A stretch of DNA of 64,000 bases from Leucobacter exalbidus. Its GTDB lineage: Bacteria > Actinomycetota > Actinomycetes > Actinomycetales > Microbacteriaceae. The notes under the pieces are model-generated. The model had not been told where the DNA came from. It did not search any database and was given only the letters and a program-made list of their open reading frames with translations. Position 1 is the first letter of the stretch, and each line of letters opens with the position of its first letter. The DNA lies in assembly GCF_017834145.1 (NCBI RefSeq), contig NZ_JAFIDA010000001.1, positions 2,914,001 to 2,978,000 of the forward strand. The letters are read 5' to 3'. This document shows positions 230 through 6,554 of the stretch, piece after piece. The position numbers and the translations under genes were made by a program.

Positions 230-401
230 GAACCAGGCTAAGCTGGGAGCTTGCAGACGATGAGGCTGTAGGACGCTGAGCGTAACCACCCCCATCGCTG
301 TCCGAGCATTCACATTTTTGATGTCTCCCCGGCCCACAAAGTATTCGTGCGGACGGCATCTGGCTGCGCTTTCAGACGTGATCAGTTCTTCAGGAGACTC
401 A

Positions 402-1880
402 GTGAAACCCACGCTCAACCGTCGTCTCGGCGTATTCGGCATCGTATTTATGGTGGTGGCCGCGGCCGCACCGATCACGGTCGTCGCCGCCAACTTCCCG
501 CTCATCTTGAGCATCTCGGGCTCGATTGGCCTGCCCAGCATGGTGCTCGCCGCGACCCTGATTTTGCTGTTGTTTGCGGTCGGCTACACCTGGATGTCGC
601 CGCGGGTGCCCGATGCCGGCGCGTTCTACTCGTATGTGCGTCAAGGCCTCGGCCACCGTGCGGGCCTCGGCACCGCATCAATCGCACTGCTGAGCTACGT
701 GCTGCTCACCGTGTCAATGACTTGCTACCTCGGCGTGCAGACGGGCAACCTGATCAACCTGTGGCTCGGCGTCACCCCGCCGTGGTGGCTGATCTCGGGC
801 ATCATGCTGGTCATCGTGGGCGTGCTGGGCTATCGCGACATCGAACTCTCGGCCAAGGTGCTCGGCTTCGTGCTCGTGCTCGAGGTGATTGCGGTGCTCG
901 CGATTGACCTGGGCGTGCTCGCCTCGGGCGCCGAACTGTCAACGGCCGCACTGAACCCTGCCGAAGCGCTCGTCGGAGCCCCCGGGCTCGGGCTGCTGTT
1001 CGCGTTCTTGGGCTTCTTCGGATTCGAAGCAACCGCGGTGTTCCGCAATGAGGCGAAGGACCCCGAGCGCACCGTGCCCCGCGCGACCTACATCGCCGTG
1101 ATCACGATCGGTGCACTGTACTTCGTGTCGTCGTGGCTCGTCGTATCGGGGCTGGGCGAAGACCAGGCCGTCGCCGCATCGAACGAAGCACCCGACAGCG
1201 TCATCATGGACCTCGCCGGTTCTGTGATCGCCCCCATCTTTGCCGACCTCGTGCAGGTGCTCGTCGTGACGAGCATGTTCGCGTGCATGCTGTCGTTCCA
1301 CAACATCGTCACCCGCTACCTGTTCACGCTGGGCCAGCGCGGCGTATTGCCCGCGGCGCTCGCAGACGTGCACGCGAAGCACCGCGCGCCCTCGCGTGCA
1401 TCGCTCTGGGTGAGCATCATCACCTCGGCCGTGGTCGTGGTGTCGGCGCTCGCGCAGCTCGACCCCGTGGTGCAGATCTACACCTGGTACTCGGGCGCCG
1501 GGGCGGTGGGCGTGATCTGGATGATGGCGCTCACCAGCGTCGCCGTGATCGCGTTTGGCCGCTCACAGAAGGGCGCACTCGCCCCCTCTGGCTGGGTGGT
1601 TGGATCGGCGGTACTCGGTGGCCTGGGGCTGCTCGGCGTGCTTGCGATCTCAGTGTGGAACCTGCCCGTGCTCGTGGGCGGCACCACCGAAGCATTGATC
1701 TGGGGTGGCATCTTGATTATCGCGTTCGTGGGCGGCATGTTCTTGCCTGCCAAGCCGCAGGCCTTCGATGCGGCCGCTGAGCTGGCGAATGCTGATGCTG
1801 ATGCTGATGCTGATGCTGATGCTGATGCTGATGCTGATGCTGGTGCCGCCGAAGCTGAGCCCGCAGCGTCGGCCCGCTAG
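402..1880 (+). CDS. APC-superfamily amino acid/amine permease
   Basis: This 492-residue protein has about twelve hydrophobic segments and the APC N-terminal pattern: a short basic tail followed by GVFGIVFMVVAAAAPITVVA, then an FxGFEAT-like segment near residue 205 and acidic RNEAKDPERTVPRA, typical of loop 6-7. It probably imports an amino acid or amine by proton symport; the substrate cannot be read from sequence. The frame is open further upstream, but I chose GTG 402 because a clear CAGGAG lies at 391-396 with normal spacing and the family N-terminus begins there. The last 30 residues are an Ala-Asp dipeptide run encoded by eight perfect GCTGAT units, an acidic tail not normally seen in the family. 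Confidence 0.85.
   Translation: MKPTLNRRLGVFGIVFMVVAAAAPITVVAANFPLILSISGSIGLPSMVLAATLILLLFAVGYTWMSPRVPDAGAFYSYVRQGLGHRAGLGTASIALLSYVLLTVSMTCYLGVQTGNLINLWLGVTPPWWLISGIMLVIVGVLGYRDIELSAKVLGFVLVLEVIAVLAIDLGVLASGAELSTAALNPAEALVGAPGLGLLFAFLGFFGFEATAVFRNEAKDPERTVPRATYIAVITIGALYFVSSWLVVSGLGEDQAVAASNEAPDSVIMDLAGSVIAPIFADLVQVLVVTSMFACMLSFHNIVTRYLFTLGQRGVLPAALADVHAKHRAPSRASLWVSIITSAVVVVSALAQLDPVVQIYTWYSGAGAVGVIWMMALTSVAVIAFGRSQKGALAPSGWVVGSAVLGGLGLLGVLAISVWNLPVLVGGTTEALIWGGILIIAFVGGMFLPAKPQAFDAAAELANADADADADADADADADAGAAEAEPAASAR
1791..1838 (+). repeat. Hexanucleotide microsatellite (GCTGAT)x8 inside the permease gene
   Basis: Eight perfect tandem copies of GCTGAT encode an Ala-Asp run near the C-terminus of the permease. 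A ninth unit is changed to GCTGGT. Because the unit is six bases, slippage would change the tail by two residues per copy without shifting the frame, so the tail length is expected to vary between strains while the transporter stays intact. Confidence 0.97.
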
Positions 1881-1904
1881 GTCTGAGCCCGGTAGGCTTC
1901 ACTC

Positions 1905-2447
1905 ATGGCAATAGGCGCAACGATCCACACCTTTGAAGTACAACTGGCTGACGTGGATCGCGGGGTATACGAGAACTTTTCACTTCGTGTCGCTCGGCAC
2001 CCCTCAGAGACCGCCGAGTACATGGTGACGCGTCTGCTCGCGTACTGCCTTGAGTACGAAGATGGCATTGTGTTTGCGGCCGGTGGCGTCTCGTCAACCG
2101 ACGAACCCGCCGTGCTCGTGCGCGACCTCACCGGGCAGATCACAGCCTGGATTGAGATCGGTGCGCCCGATGCCGCCCGGCTGCACTTCGGCAGCAAGCT
2201 TGCCGGTCGCGCCGCCGTGTACACGCACCGCGACCCCGAGAAGCTGCTGACATCATGGGCCGGCAAAACGATTCACCACGCCGACGAGATTGTCGTGCGC
2301 TCGTTTGAGCCCAAGTTCGTGGACGAGGTGGCGCGGGCGCTCGGCCGCCGCAACACCCTGTCGATCTCGGCGACCGAGGGCACGCTGTACCTCGAGCTCG
2401 GCGACACCGCCGTCTCGAGTGAAATCTTCGAGCACCGCGCGGGCTAA
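1905..2447 (+). CDS. yaeQ: YaeQ family protein
   Basis: The 180-residue product has the family's normal length and is recognisable throughout: it starts with GATIHTFEVQLADVDRGVYE, continues with LRVARHPSETAEYM and has WIEIGAPDAARLH in the middle. YaeQ proteins share a PD-(D/E)XK nuclease-like fold of unresolved function; the E. coli protein was linked to suppression of RfaH loss. ATG 1905 is the only sensible start. The gene follows the permease by 24 bp on the same strand, so the two may be co-transcribed. It ends before a strong inverted repeat shared with the convergent regulator gene. The family call is confident; the biochemical role is not known. Confidence 0.9.
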   Translation: MAIGATIHTFEVQLADVDRGVYENFSLRVARHPSETAEYMVTRLLAYCLEYEDGIVFAAGGVSSTDEPAVLVRDLTGQITAWIEIGAPDAARLHFGSKLAGRAAVYTHRDPEKLLTSWAGKTIHHADEIVVRSFEPKFVDEVARALGRRNTLSISATEGTLYLELGDTAVSSEIFEHRAG

Positions 2448-2501
2448 CACTGAGCACCGCGCGAGCCAGCTCTTCGCAGCGCCCGTGCTCATGCTTCGCA
2501 G

Positions 2502-2548
2502 CGAACGGCCGCATCATCCCCTGAAAAAGAGGAAGATGCGGCCGTTCG
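2502..2548. terminator. Bidirectional intrinsic terminator between yaeQ and the HxlR gene
   Basis: A 14-bp perfect inverted repeat (CGAACGGCCGCATC at 2502-2515, its complement at 2535-2548) encloses a loop containing an A-run. It lies exactly between two convergent genes and touches the stop codon of the minus-strand gene, so it probably ends transcripts from both sides, although the T-tract is weak. Confidence 0.7.
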
Positions 2549-2923
2549 CTATTTCACGCCGTGGTGGGTGTCGTATGCCTCGCGGGCCGAGAGCACTTCG
2601 GGCACATAGCTCTTCGCCCAGTGCTCGAGCGCGCTCAGGGGCTCGCGCATGGTCTGGCCGATGTCGGTGAGGGCGTACTCGACGCGGGGCGGTACCTCGG
2701 CGTAGACGGTGCGCTGCACCAGCCCATCGCGCTCGAGTGCGCGCAGCGTTTGGGTGAGCATTTTTGACGAGACGCCGCCGACGGCACTGGCGAGCTGCGA
2801 GAATCGGGCCGGCCCGTGGCCCAGCGTGCCAACGACGAGCACCGTCCACCGGTCGCCGATGCGATCGAGGATCGTGCGGGTGGGGCAGTTGGGGTCGTAC
2901 GGATTTCCTTCGAGCCCACTCAC
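2549..2923 (-). CDS. HxlR-family (MarR-like) transcriptional regulator
   Basis: The product is 124 residues from GTG 2923, preceded by a GAGGTG ribosome site; a GTG nine bases upstream is the alternative. It shows the HxlR winged-helix core: CPTRTILDRIGDRWTVLVV, the RFSQLASAVGGVSSKMLTQTLRALERDGLVQR recognition region split over helices, and VEYALTDIG. Cys13 sits where QorR/YodB-type members carry their thiol sensor, so redox or electrophile sensing is plausible. It is transcribed divergently from an NAD(P)-binding oxidoreductase, the usual arrangement for this family, and probably represses both itself and that neighbour. The longer upstream frame, rich in Ser/Ala/Pro, is not part of the family and was not used. 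Confidence 0.88.
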   Translation of the reverse strand: MSGLEGNPYDPNCPTRTILDRIGDRWTVLVVGTLGHGPARFSQLASAVGGVSSKMLTQTLRALERDGLVQRTVYAEVPPRVEYALTDIGQTMREPLSALEHWAKSYVPEVLSAREAYDTHHGVK

Positions 2924-3061
2924 GTGCGCCACCTCGTCTCTGTTGGTCTTTGTCGCTGAGCTGCCTGCTGGGCTGCTGGATGGCTGGGGTGCGGCTGGGC
3001 TGCTGGGTAGGTTACCTGGCGGTGCCTTGCGCACTCTAAAGTGCCTACTTCCCATTCCAGT

Positions 3062-3080
3062 GTAACTCTCTTATAGTAAC
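3062..3080. promoter_or_regulatory. Candidate promoter/operator between HxlR and oxidoreductase genes
   Basis: The intergenic stretch contains GTAAC at 3062-3066 and again at 3076-3080, with TATAGT at 3072-3077 resembling a -10 element for the rightward oxidoreductase. Repeats overlapping a -10 box are a reasonable place for an HxlR dimer, but no perfect dyad is present, so this is a tentative call. Confidence 0.35.
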
Positions 3081-3132
3081 TAATGGAAGGTCATTTGACC
3101 CAGATACTCGCAACACACTGAGGAGCGCACCC

Positions 3133-3777
3133 ATGGCAAAGATCACCGTTGTAGGCGGAACCGGATACGCAGGCAGCCACATCGCGCAGGTTGCCGCCGA
3201 CCGCGGCCACGAGGTTACTTCGTACAGCCGCTCGATCCCCGAGACCCAGATCGCTGGCGTCACCTACGCCACCGGATCCATCCTCGACGGTGATATCGCT
3301 GCCGCGGTCGTCGAGGGCGCAGATGTCGTGCTCGTCGCGCTGTCGCCCCGCGGCGACATGGCTGGCAAGACCGCCGCGGCGATCGCGGCCCTGGCGGCCC
3401 GCGCACGCGTGGCTGGCAAGCGTATTGGCGTGATCGGCGGCGCCGGATCACTGTTCGTTTCAGAGGGCGGCCCGCTCGTCGCAGACACCGAGGGTTTCCC
3501 CGCAGAGATCAAGCCCGAGGCCGATGAGATGGCCCAGGTGCTCGCTGACCTGCGCGCAAGCGATGCCGAGCTCGACTGGTTCTTCGTGAGCCCCGCTGGC
3601 GGCTTTGGCGCGTGGGTGCCGGGGGAGGCCACGGGCGTCTTCCGCATCGGCGGTGACGTGCTGCTCGTCGACGAGAACGGTGAGTCGAACATCTCGGGCG
3701 CCGACCTCGCCGCGGCGATCATCGACGAGGTCGAGACCCCCGCGCACCGCCGCCAGCGCTTCACCGCGGCGTACTAA
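3133..3777 (+). CDS. NAD(P)-dependent oxidoreductase (NmrA/atypical SDR type)
   Basis: The 214-residue protein begins with a Rossmann dinucleotide loop, VVGGTGYAGSHIA, with the Gly-rich turn at residues 8-14, and its length is right for the small NAD(P)H-binding proteins related to NmrA and flavin reductase B. It is a cytosolic reductase or redox sensor; the substrate is unknown. ATG 3133 has AGGAG eight bases upstream. Divergence from an HxlR regulator is a recurring pair in Actinobacteria and Firmicutes and suggests induction by quinones or other electrophiles, which is inference. Its TAA overlaps the stop of the convergent hydrolase pseudogene by about 3 bp. Confidence 0.87.
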   Translation: MAKITVVGGTGYAGSHIAQVAADRGHEVTSYSRSIPETQIAGVTYATGSILDGDIAAAVVEGADVVLVALSPRGDMAGKTAAAIAALAARARVAGKRIGVIGGAGSLFVSEGGPLVADTEGFPAEIKPEADEMAQVLADLRASDAELDWFFVSPAGGFGAWVPGEATGVFRIGGDVLLVDENGESNISGADLAAAIIDEVETPAHRRQRFTAAY

Positions 3778-4633
3778 GCGGCGATTGCCCGCGCGAGCAG
3801 GGCATGGCCCTCGGCGCCGGGGTGGATGCCATCGGTGAGTAGCTCCGGACGATTCTCAAGCACATTCCATGAGTCGATGAAGTCGCGGTGGGTCGAGGCG
3901 CACCACGACTGCAGTGCGGCTCTCAACGCGTGCACGTCTGAGATGTCGATATCGATGAGTGCGCTGTCGAGCCAATTGGGGCTCAGGACCACCACACGGC
4001 GGCCCTGAGCCTCCATGCGGCCCGCGAAGAGATCGAGGCGCTCGACGAGACCCTGAACGACCTGCTCGACAGCGCCCGAGGGGGAGTGCAACAGATCGTT
4101 GATTCCGGCCGCAACGCAGATGGTGTCGGCCCTGCGGGCGACCACTTCGTGCGCGGCAGCATCGAGGACTTCTGTCAGGCGTGCGCCAGGCCACGCAAGA
4201 TTGAAGAACCTGTTGCGCTCTTCATTTACAAGAATGTGATCGGCGGCGACAGCGGCGGCCCATCCGCCCGTGGGCGTTGTGCGCCCGTAGGCGATGGAGT
4301 CGCCGATGAGCGCGATGCGTTCGGCCACCGCGAGCGGCGCGGCCGAAACGTAGCACCAGGCTGCGCCGCCATCTCGCGTCATCACGCGGCGCCTGGCATA
4401 GGCGGAGACCTCGTAGGCATCGGCAGCGGCAAGTTCTTCAGTGGTCAGCGTGATGATCCCGCCCGCCACGCTGTCGCCCACTCTGCGGACGAGGCCGAGG
4501 TGGGTGGCGATGCCGCTGGTGGCAATGACCTCGGGGTCAGTAATCGGCACCGCGGTCGTGCCGTGGCCAAGGATTTCATCAGCGATGACCTCGGGCTCGC
4601 GGCCGAATAAGCTCAGCTGCACCTTGGGATCGA

Positions 4634-4639
4634 GCAGGG
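4634..4639. repeat. Target-site duplication, left copy
   Basis: GCAGGG is repeated directly at 5242-5247. Deleting the element plus one copy restores an uninterrupted reading frame, which independently supports these boundaries. Confidence 0.85.
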
Positions 4640-4640
4640 C

Positions 4641-4694
4641 GTTTAGCAGAGGCTTCGGAGAGCGCCTGTGTATCGATCCGATAGCGCGGGCGTA
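4641..4694 (+). repeat. Left imperfect terminal inverted repeat of the IS21 derivative
   Basis: Read on the complement, this 54-bp segment aligns without gaps to 5187-5240, with about three quarters identity by eye. The best conserved part is GGAGAGCGC followed by TGTGTA and CCGATAG. Confidence 0.8.
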
Positions 4695-4780
4695 ACGACA
4701 CGAAAGCAGTCGACCCCGCCCGCCCGTGCTCTAGCCGGGCCAGGCGACGACCTTCACCTCTCGACCGCGTTCTGCCCCCA

Positions 4781-5083
4781 CTAGATGAAGCAGTACTGGC
4801 ATGCACGACACTGCCGATCCGGTCTCCTAGTATTTCTGCTGACACTGCGGGCATCTGACGTGTGGCAGCAGCCTCGGTACGCTGCGCAGAGGAGGACCCT
4901 CAACCTGACCCCAACTTTTTCGAGCTCTCCATGTAGTCGGTGCCAGTCGGGCTGTTCGTAGATACTCCCGCGGTTCCTTCTGTCGGGGAAGAGCCGTTCG
5001 TGGACTTCTGACTCGGTCATATCTGCCACGGTCTCCCATATGAGCTGCTCACGGGCGGCGCGCGCTTTGATCTTATGTACCAT
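4781..5083 (-). pseudogene. istA: IS21 transposase IstA, N-terminal remnant
   Basis: From ATG 5083 the frame reads MVHKIKARAAREQL and then a segment typical of IstA: ESEVHERLFPDRR, SIYEQPDWHRLHGELEKVGV. About 75 codons align with the region between the N-terminal helix-turn-helix and the start of the catalytic domain, but the part after MVHKIKA is much shorter than in intact IstA, so the helix-turn-helix is largely deleted. Near 4890 homology ends; another frame briefly continues with cysteine-rich PHVRCPQC. No DDE catalytic core remains, so the product cannot be active as a transposase. Confidence 0.75.
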
Positions 5084-5186
5084 CAGAGTTGCTTCTTCTG
5101 TCGTCCGGTAACAGCGGACGGCAGAAGGAGCCTACGAGCGTGGCCCACCAAAGACCTCCATATTGACTCGGGCGCTATTGGATACC

Positions 5187-5240
5187 TACACGCCCGCTAT
5201 CGGGTCGTTACACAAGCGCTCTCCAATGCACCGACTAAAC
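5187..5240 (-). repeat. Right imperfect terminal inverted repeat of the IS21 derivative
   Basis: This is the partner of 4641-4694. It is the istA-proximal end: on the minus strand it is followed by a second CAATAGCGCCCGAG-like block and then the istA start at 5083, the layout expected for the left end of an IS21 element. Confidence 0.8.
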
Positions 5241-5241
5241 A

Positions 5242-5247
5242 GCAGGG
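5242..5247. repeat. Target-site duplication, right copy
   Basis: GCAGGG matches 4634-4639 exactly and directly abuts the ACA end of the IS21 derivative. Confidence 0.85.
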
Positions 5248-5364
5248 TGCCAAATGAGAATACTTTTTCGGTGCGGAGTGCTGCGGGACACATGGAAGAC
5301 GCGTTCCTTTGGGATGACGATGGAGGATCGTGGCGTGATCCGGGACTGTTTAAGAATACAGAAA

Positions 5365-5400
5365 GGGGGCACGACCGCAGAAATTTGCGGTCGTGCCCCC
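5365..5400. terminator. Intrinsic terminator downstream of hpaD
   Basis: A 14-bp perfect stem (GGGGGCACGACCGC at 5365-5378 with its complement at 5387-5400) and an 8-base A/T loop lie 12 bp past the hpaD stop. On the minus strand the stem is followed by TTTCTGTATTC. This probably ends the hpa transcript. Confidence 0.88.
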
Positions 5401-5411
5401 CAGTTGTGTCT

Positions 5412-6554
5412 TTACAGCGAGTGGCCGAGCTTGAAGCCCTTATCGCCCTCTTCGTCGCGCGTGTACGAGAAACCGTCGGCGCCGATGGTCACGGCCATTT
5501 CGGAGTCGTGCGTGCGGGCCACGACGGGCTGCGGGTTGCCATCGAGGTCGAGCACGAGCGAGCCCTCGGTGTACCACGACGGCACGACGGGGTTGCCCCA
5601 CCAGTCACGGCGCTGGTTGTCGTGTACATCCCAGGTGACGACGGGGTTGTCGGGGTCGCCCGTGTAGTAATCCTGGGTGTAGATCTCGACGCGGTGGCCA
5701 TCGGGATCGCGCAGGTAGAGGTAGAACGCGTTCGAAACACCGTGGCGGCCGGGGCCACGCTCGATGCTGTCTGACTTGCGCAGCGAGCCGAGCTTGTCAC
5801 AGATCGCGAGAATGTTGTGCTTCTCGTGCGTTGCGAAGCAGACGTGGTGCATGCGGGGGCCATCGCCACCGGTCATCGCGGTGTCGTGCACGGTCGGCTT
5901 GCGGCGCATCCACGCGGCGTAGACGGTGCCCTCGGCATCCTGAATGTCCTCGGTCACGCGGAAGCCCAGGTTCTGCATGTAACCCACAGCGCGGGGCACG
6001 TCGGGCGTGATCTGGTTGAAGTGATCGAGACGCACCAGCTCACCGGGGATGTGCAGGTCGTAGCGCCACGACATACGCTCGGTGTGCTCGGTCTGGAAGA
6101 AGAATTCGTAGGGGAAGCCGAGCGGATCGACGACGCGCACCGAATCACCGATGCCCTTCACGAATCCGTTCGGGTTGCGGCGCACCTCGCAGCCGAGCTC
6201 GCCGAAGAACGCCTCGGCCTTGTCGAGATCAGCTGCGCTGCGCACGCGGTATGAGAACGCGGCGACGGCCGCGACGGGGCCCTTGCGCAGCACGAGGTTG
6301 TGGTGAATAAACTCCTCGGTGGAGCGCAGGTAGATGGCCTCGTCGTCTTCGGTGGTGACGTAGAGTCCCAGCACGTCGACGTAGAACTCGCGCGATGCGG
6401 CGAGGTCGGTGACGATCAGCTCCATGTAGGCGCAGCGGAGAATGTCTGGTGCCTCAGAGGTGGGGGCGGGGATCGGGTTGTCAGAGATGATCGGGGCCTC
6501 CTGGGTGACCCAGAAGCCTGCCGACTGCTTGTCTTCTTCGTTGAGCTTTGCCAT
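5412..6554 (-). CDS. hpaD: 3,4-dihydroxyphenylacetate (homoprotocatechuate) 2,3-dioxygenase
   Basis: The 380-residue protein closely resembles the extradiol homoprotocatechuate 2,3-dioxygenase of Brevibacterium fuscum as I remember it: PDILRCAYMELIVTDLAASR near the start, LVRLDHFNQITPDVPR, MHHVCFATHEKHNI and GPGRHGVSNAFYLYLRDPDG. The metal ligands fit the two His of LDHF and MHHV and the Glu of VEIYTQ, so it should open the ring of homoprotocatechuate to 5-carboxymethyl-2-hydroxymuconate semialdehyde. ATG 6554 is chosen with AAGGAAG upstream; a longer open frame to 6812 runs into hpaE and is not real. It has about 20 more residues at the N-terminus than the Brevibacterium enzyme. It is the last gene of the hpa operon. 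Confidence 0.95.
   Translation of the reverse strand: MAKLNEEDKQSAGFWVTQEAPIISDNPIPAPTSEAPDILRCAYMELIVTDLAASREFYVDVLGLYVTTEDDEAIYLRSTEEFIHHNLVLRKGPVAAVAAFSYRVRSAADLDKAEAFFGELGCEVRRNPNGFVKGIGDSVRVVDPLGFPYEFFFQTEHTERMSWRYDLHIPGELVRLDHFNQITPDVPRAVGYMQNLGFRVTEDIQDAEGTVYAAWMRRKPTVHDTAMTGGDGPRMHHVCFATHEKHNILAICDKLGSLRKSDSIERGPGRHGVSNAFYLYLRDPDGHRVEIYTQDYYTGDPDNPVVTWDVHDNQRRDWWGNPVVPSWYTEGSLVLDLDGNPQPVVARTHDSEMAVTIGADGFSYTRDEEGDKGFKLGHSL

Follow-up and report, generated by a model that had tools for sequence, protein, structure and literature searches.

Positions 3774-5293 of the window, by which we mean the whole 64,000-nucleotide stretch of Leucobacter exalbidus DNA that we analysed, hold a minus-strand gene that lies in two pieces around a 602-bp insert. 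The question is what the insert is, how it came to be there and what it has left of the gene. In the reading that we prefer, with a probability of roughly 93%, a trans-acting IS21-type transposase put a mini-IS21 of 602 bp into the coding sequence of a two-domain GGCT-SGNH protein and thereby duplicated 6 bp, GCAGGG. This reading is carried by observations directly visible in the data: GCAGGG is duplicated, the insert has terminal repeats, a sister copy of it exists, a full-length IS21 has ends that match its own, and homologues without an interruption open as expected.

The interrupted gene and its intact relatives

The 5' piece of the gene (5243..5293, minus strand) reads MCPAALRTEKVFSFGTL and comprises the first strand and the FGTL loop of a GGCT domain. 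The 3' piece (3774..4634, minus strand, stop codon included) contains the rest of that domain and an SGNH/GDSL hydrolase domain; it starts LDPKVQLSLFGR and runs for 286 codons without a stop (3777-4634). At the junction, the 5' piece ends with FSFGTL and the 3' piece begins with LDPKVQ. The insert and the duplication together add 602 + 6 bp, that is 2 modulo 3, and thus shift the reading frame: the frame from the ATG at 5293 runs into the element and, after 35 residues, reaches a stop within it. Upstream, a terminator-like hairpin of 16 pairs (5364..5401, minus strand) separates the start of the broken gene from a dioxygenase-like gene whose end is at 5412; shuffled sequences contain equally many such sites (mean 1.0). 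Rfam gave no match within 3500-5600 of the window.

In Pfam, the 3' piece matched Lipase_GDSL_2 (PF13472) with 60.7 bits against a cut-off of 32.9, and the GGACT/AIG2-like family (PF06094) with 21.9 bits, slightly below the cut-off of 22.8. SGNH/GDSL hydrolases share the conserved blocks GDS, Gly, GxND and DxxH, and the 3' piece contains GDS, G-I-N-D and D-G-I-H, which are also conserved in 45 fusion proteins described below. The GGCT/AIG2-like domain (PF06094) has an opening strand with an xxxGTL loop and a conserved glutamate; the insert has divided these features, with FSFGTL in the 5' piece and the E of DAYE in the 3' piece.

We searched for intact forms of the gene at increasing distance. 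In a sample of 396 genomes from the same order, seven (the gene's own included) had a match at E 1e-14 or better; in five of them the match began at query residue 2-22 and reached 279-281, with 45-52% identity, and in the remaining one it covered residues 2-106 only. When translated, the five intact homologues proved to be two-domain proteins opening with FSFGTL, and both domains (PF06094 and PF13472) exceeded the Pfam cut-offs in all five scanned. A profile search of genome contigs with the alignment of the intact homologues as query gave 253 relatives, of which we kept the best 80; 48 of these covered nearly the whole query and the other 32 the GGCT part, reaching residue 142 at most. Of 78 candidate stretches from a contig search in which only the 3' piece served as query, none was confirmed; the alignment of intact homologues succeeded, and the 3' piece had no match among plasmids. 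The near-full-length fusions come from Brevibacterium, Rothia, Micrococcus, Kocuria, Arthrobacter, Streptomyces, Kitasatospora, Nonomuraea, Actinomadura and others, and include one protein identical to one of the five from the order sample. FSFGTL occupied the place of the junction in 48 of 48, namely the 45 homologues on which column conservation was computed and the three outside that set (L118, L143 and L146). Across the 45, 91 columns were conserved at 93% or above, and the interrupted gene keeps 85 of them and differs in six (6/6 kept in the N piece and 79/85 in the C piece, the SGNH blocks among them). Relative to the five order-sample homologues, the 3' piece has a gap of six residues and also a short additional stretch.

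Closer relatives are of another kind. In the family sample (398 genomes, E 1e-10), 37 genomes matched, the gene's own included; 35 of the 36 others had the GGCT part only or little beyond, many of these matches being open frames of about 111-125 residues, and the 36th (G399) had GGCT and SGNH as two adjoining genes. The rarity of the fusion among near relatives could be taken to mean that the join is a coincidence, the real gene being SGNH-only and 5243-5293 unrelated to it; yet the presence of FSFGTL at that very place in every near-full-length fusion, and of the rest of the GGCT domain in the 3' piece, leaves this idea with next to no credibility. The adjoining genes of G399 (locus L036: GGCT 1095-1496 and SGNH 1498-2091, same strand) may be an unfused counterpart of the two-domain protein. 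Neither the species nor the genus yielded an empty site, and the join therefore rests on homologues from other genera, those directly compared being 45-52% identical. The first-pass annotation, made from the letters alone, had described a GGCT-like/SGNH gene split by an IS21-type element, with a GCAGGG duplication and an in-frame junction of the two parts. Pfam, the homologues and the shared ends of the element bear out both the gene type and the IS21 kinship, and the duplication, the frame and the junction were likewise confirmed. It had also named relatives without a GGCT opening as evidence against a split gene; the uninterrupted relatives do carry the opening, and none of them was found in the same genus.

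An AlphaFold2 model of the intact homologue from Brevibacterium rongguiense (L110; mean pLDDT 91.8) places the first strand at residues 4-8; on this model, therefore, the insertion cuts the GGCT domain just after its first strand and FGTL loop. A Foldseek comparison of the model with solved structures returned GDSL-type hydrolases as the best matches, 4rw0 first, and the best 50 consisted of GDSL-type or other esterases and designed scaffolds, with no GGCT-named structure among them. Because of this, the GGCT assignment is one that rests on Pfam and on alignment. The fusion profile found 26 solved sequences, whose best stretches start at profile position 100 at least, i.e., in the SGNH part, and a free-standing GGCT relative (L040) had no nearby solved structure at E 0.01. 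Around the 48 intact-fusion loci, one neighbour family was present at 40 and absent from the Brevibacterium, Rothia, Micrococcus, Kocuria and Arthrobacter loci, its example frame overlapping the fusion on the opposite strand; four Actinomadura fusion loci have neighbours in common.

A non-autonomous IS21 derivative

The insert spans 4640..5241 (602 bp, minus strand as judged by its istA fragment) and is directly flanked by the two copies of GCAGGG, at 5242..5247 and 4634..4639. Its ends form a terminal inverted repeat of 54 nt (4641-4694 and 5187-5240) that is 78% complementary: 42 of 54 positions match, and none of 2,000 mononucleotide shuffles exceeded 27 matches. A published account describes the IS21 ends as terminal inverted repeats, each composed of two or more direct repeats, and gives a terminal CA (PMC10122671). 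Each end of the mini-element contains two 18-nt repeats, 22 bp apart and 13/18 identical, at 29-46 and 51-68 from the terminus. At the same place, the repeats are 15/18 and 12/18 identical in a full-length IS21 of the same genome (12/18 being its right end), and 14/18 and 13/18 in an IS21 copy of a related genome (G036). When the place was fixed, such values were reached in 0-2 of 4,000 shuffles; when repeats were allowed anywhere in the 110-nt ends, 49 and 24 of 400 shuffles did as well as the mini-element. What persuades is the shared place of the repeats in the ends. Termini of the form TG...CA are general for the IS21 family. The right end of the insert reads CTAAACA; the left end reads CGTTTAG in the window and TGTTTAG in L008, in six G036 copies and in a G031 end. 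The first base of the insert, at 4640, is thus a C in contrast to the T of the full-length IS21 copies compared; either it has mutated or the boundary is off by one base.

The full-length IS21 (C1:297804-300451; 2,648 bp) has open istA and istB frames and, at both ends, sequences like those of the mini-element. Its 548-aa istA product matches NCBIfam transpos_IS21 with 214 bits (cut-off 160), and its istB belongs to PF01695. Over 72 bp, the istA-side end of the insert (5170..5241) shares 96% identity with the corresponding end of this IS21, and the istB-side end (4640..4764) shares 83% (bases 2-125). A related genome, G036, has an IS21 of the same subgroup in six copies, each of 2,645 bp and with istA about 72% identical. 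Five of the six are flanked by exact 6-bp duplications, all starting with G and one reading GCTGGG, and GCAGGG therefore fits; the sixth, L105, has none. As far as shown, L105 and another of these copies, L102, have the same left flank and differ in the right, a pattern pointing to recombination between copies or to an effect of the assembly.

The insert has no istB, and its istA is cut to a fragment. Without open istA and istB frames it is therefore a derivative and not an autonomous member of IS21, and should not transpose alone. The missing istB and most of istA would also suit a full-length IS21 that decayed in place; against this stands a second copy in the same genome (G000:C1:450068-450668), of equal length and structure and with only five differences in 601 bases, which sits at another site with different flanks and a short duplication of its own (ATCCC(T) on one side and ATCCCT on the other, 5 bp or 6 bp long according to where the element is taken to start). 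We regard decay in place as very improbable. The IS21 origin proposed in the first-pass annotation stands, whereas its term "remnant" gives way to a mini-IS21 with a near-identical second copy and a possible helper. A search of 59 other genomes did not recover the complete 602-bp element and gave partial matches in three. A second search, of 397 other genomes (E 1e-12; up to two scored candidates for each genome among the matches listed), did not recover it either; the two samples overlap. The DNA of the element had no match among plasmids.

On the preferred reading, an IS21-type transposase acting in trans would have mobilised the mini-IS21 and inserted it immediately after the part of the gene that encodes the first strand and FGTL loop of the GGCT domain, GCAGGG (6 bp) being duplicated in the process. 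The sister copy and the matching full-length IS21 are circumstantial evidence, drawn from sequence comparison, for such mobilisation in trans. The helper would be the full-length IS21 of the same genome, or an IS21 closely related to it; that very copy may not be the actual helper, because its flanks form an imperfect duplication (CGAGAG/CGAGCA) and it is only 83% identical to the insert at one end.

The interior of the element has a different affinity. A 100-codon open frame (4781..5083, minus strand) resembles a fragment of istA from another IS21 subgroup, with 51% identity over 76 aa to an istA at locus L009 of the same genome (G000:C1:1201500-1206700); against this first L009 istA, it has a gap of about 31 codons behind its first residues. 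Its other matches were an istA in G008 (38% over 100 residues) and a third istA, also in L009, over 36 residues. The frame matched 14 plasmid records, the ten listed being 37-54% identical and six annotated as istA. It had no match in Pfam or NCBIfam, and a blastp comparison with the istA of the full-length IS21 gave none at 1e-2. As far as these comparisons show, the ends and the interior derive from different IS21 lineages. We incline, by a small measure, toward a chimeric mini-IS21 in which the ends of one subgroup enclose an istA piece and leader of another and which is moved in trans by the first. If this is true, IS21 transposases move foreign DNA between their ends, which would provide a route to passenger-carrying IS21 derivatives.

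Two further features of this region deserve mention. Just upstream of the start of the istA fragment, positions 5092-5130 form a potential hairpin; the stretch is shared with L009, lies within the part matching G008 and may be a structure in the leader of that IS21 subgroup. At L009 itself, a 2.6-kb IS21 (approximately 1117-3763, minus strand, istA 540 aa and istB 255 aa) lies inside the leader of the istA of another IS21 (plus strand, start 3772), apparently an IS21 nested in an IS21, and falls between the stretches that match positions 425-452 and 453-491 of the mini-element.

Origin, age and fate of the broken gene

A search of 53 further genomes of the genus at E 1e-8 recovered no full-length homologue, one match (G265) being limited to residues 2-98. 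At E 1e-3, six of 36 genomes of the genus had weak matches of 25-29% identity within residues 75-280, which we take for other SGNH hydrolases; in the gene's own genome, the same threshold gave no other PF06094 match and two other PF13472 matches. With no full-length homologue recovered from the 53 genomes, the gene was probably acquired, or else widely lost in the genus. The neighbouring dioxygenase-like gene is present in 48 of the 54 genomes of the genus (E 1e-60, own included), one of the 48, G002, having it only as a 41% relative. We compared 30 dioxygenase-like loci, 29 of them other than the window, with flanks of about 1.5 kb by tblastn. The hydrolase, reductase, HxlR and YaeQ-like genes were all absent from the 29, a result meaning that these genes are not directly adjacent and nothing more, as flanks of this length miss the reductase, HxlR and YaeQ-like genes even at the gene's own locus. 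Relatives of the amino-acid permease of the window (318-1880), 31-46% identical, occurred at 16 of the 29. The stretch 1905-3777, which adjoins the hydrolase and contains the YaeQ-like, HxlR and NAD(P)-binding genes, is perhaps an accessory one. The simplest reading is that acquisition with an accessory stretch, or loss elsewhere in the genus, preceded the insertion.

The five differences between the two copies of the element set a limit on how long ago the two lines diverged and not on the age of this insertion alone. In simulations, 2-9 random substitutions (insertions and deletions being left out) kept the 3' piece free of stops in 82-95% of cases. An intact 3' piece therefore says little about selection, and the absence of lesions is weak evidence because the element copies are so similar. 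The first-pass annotation had concluded from the lesion-free pieces that the insertion was fairly recent or the SGNH half still selected; a recent insertion fits our results, but the lack of lesions lends no support by itself to selection.

The 3' piece could still work if its SGNH domain were translated from an internal start, such as the ATG at 4382 or the GTG at 4622, turning a two-domain protein into a single-domain hydrolase. Its 286 codons without a stop and its conserved SGNH blocks are compatible with this, a start at ATG 4382 would retain the entire Pfam SGNH match, and a lone SGNH domain does occur, as in the 197-aa SGNH protein encoded beside the separate GGCT gene of G399. An intact 3' piece is, however, expected anyway after a recent insertion. 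Furthermore, no sigma-70-like promoter was found in 3700-5500, where the scan, which covers this promoter type, expects only 0.5 by chance, and inspection by eye showed no clear Shine-Dalgarno-like ribosome-binding site upstream of GTG 4622; ATG 4382 has a weak one at most. We thus consider translation from an internal start unlikely. The remaining frame is cut off from its own start, from the region upstream of it and from an invariant part of the GGCT domain; the gene is most likely inactive, and the interrupted copy would represent a loss-of-function allele.

Comparison with known systems

The type of event is ordinary and is seen here unusually cleanly: a non-autonomous IS21 derivative has naturally disrupted a gene, and one genome contains the duplication, a sister copy and a candidate helper, so that trans-mobilisation of IS21 mini-elements becomes directly testable. 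Among the open-licence papers listed, none was seen to describe an IS21-derived miniature element or a GGCT/AIG2 plus SGNH/GDSL two-domain family, and we regard the putatively chimeric mini-IS21 and the GGCT-SGNH family as mildly new. The locus points to such a family in Actinobacteria: the gene has the same two domains as the actinobacterial PF06094 + PF13472 proteins and differs from them in being interrupted. Like MITEs and other non-autonomous IS derivatives as generally described, the insert has terminal repeats and a sister copy, lacks a transposase and may have a helper in trans. MITEs are given as generally less than 300 bp (PMC3189936); the insert is longer than the usual MITE, was found in only two copies and has an apparently chimeric interior. 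With the IS21 family it shares the paired direct repeats at the ends, a short target duplication (6 bp in related copies), the right-terminal CA and an istA-like fragment oriented as is the istA of the full-length copy, and it differs in its length of 602 bp, in having no istB and in an istA reduced to what appears to be a fragment of another subgroup.
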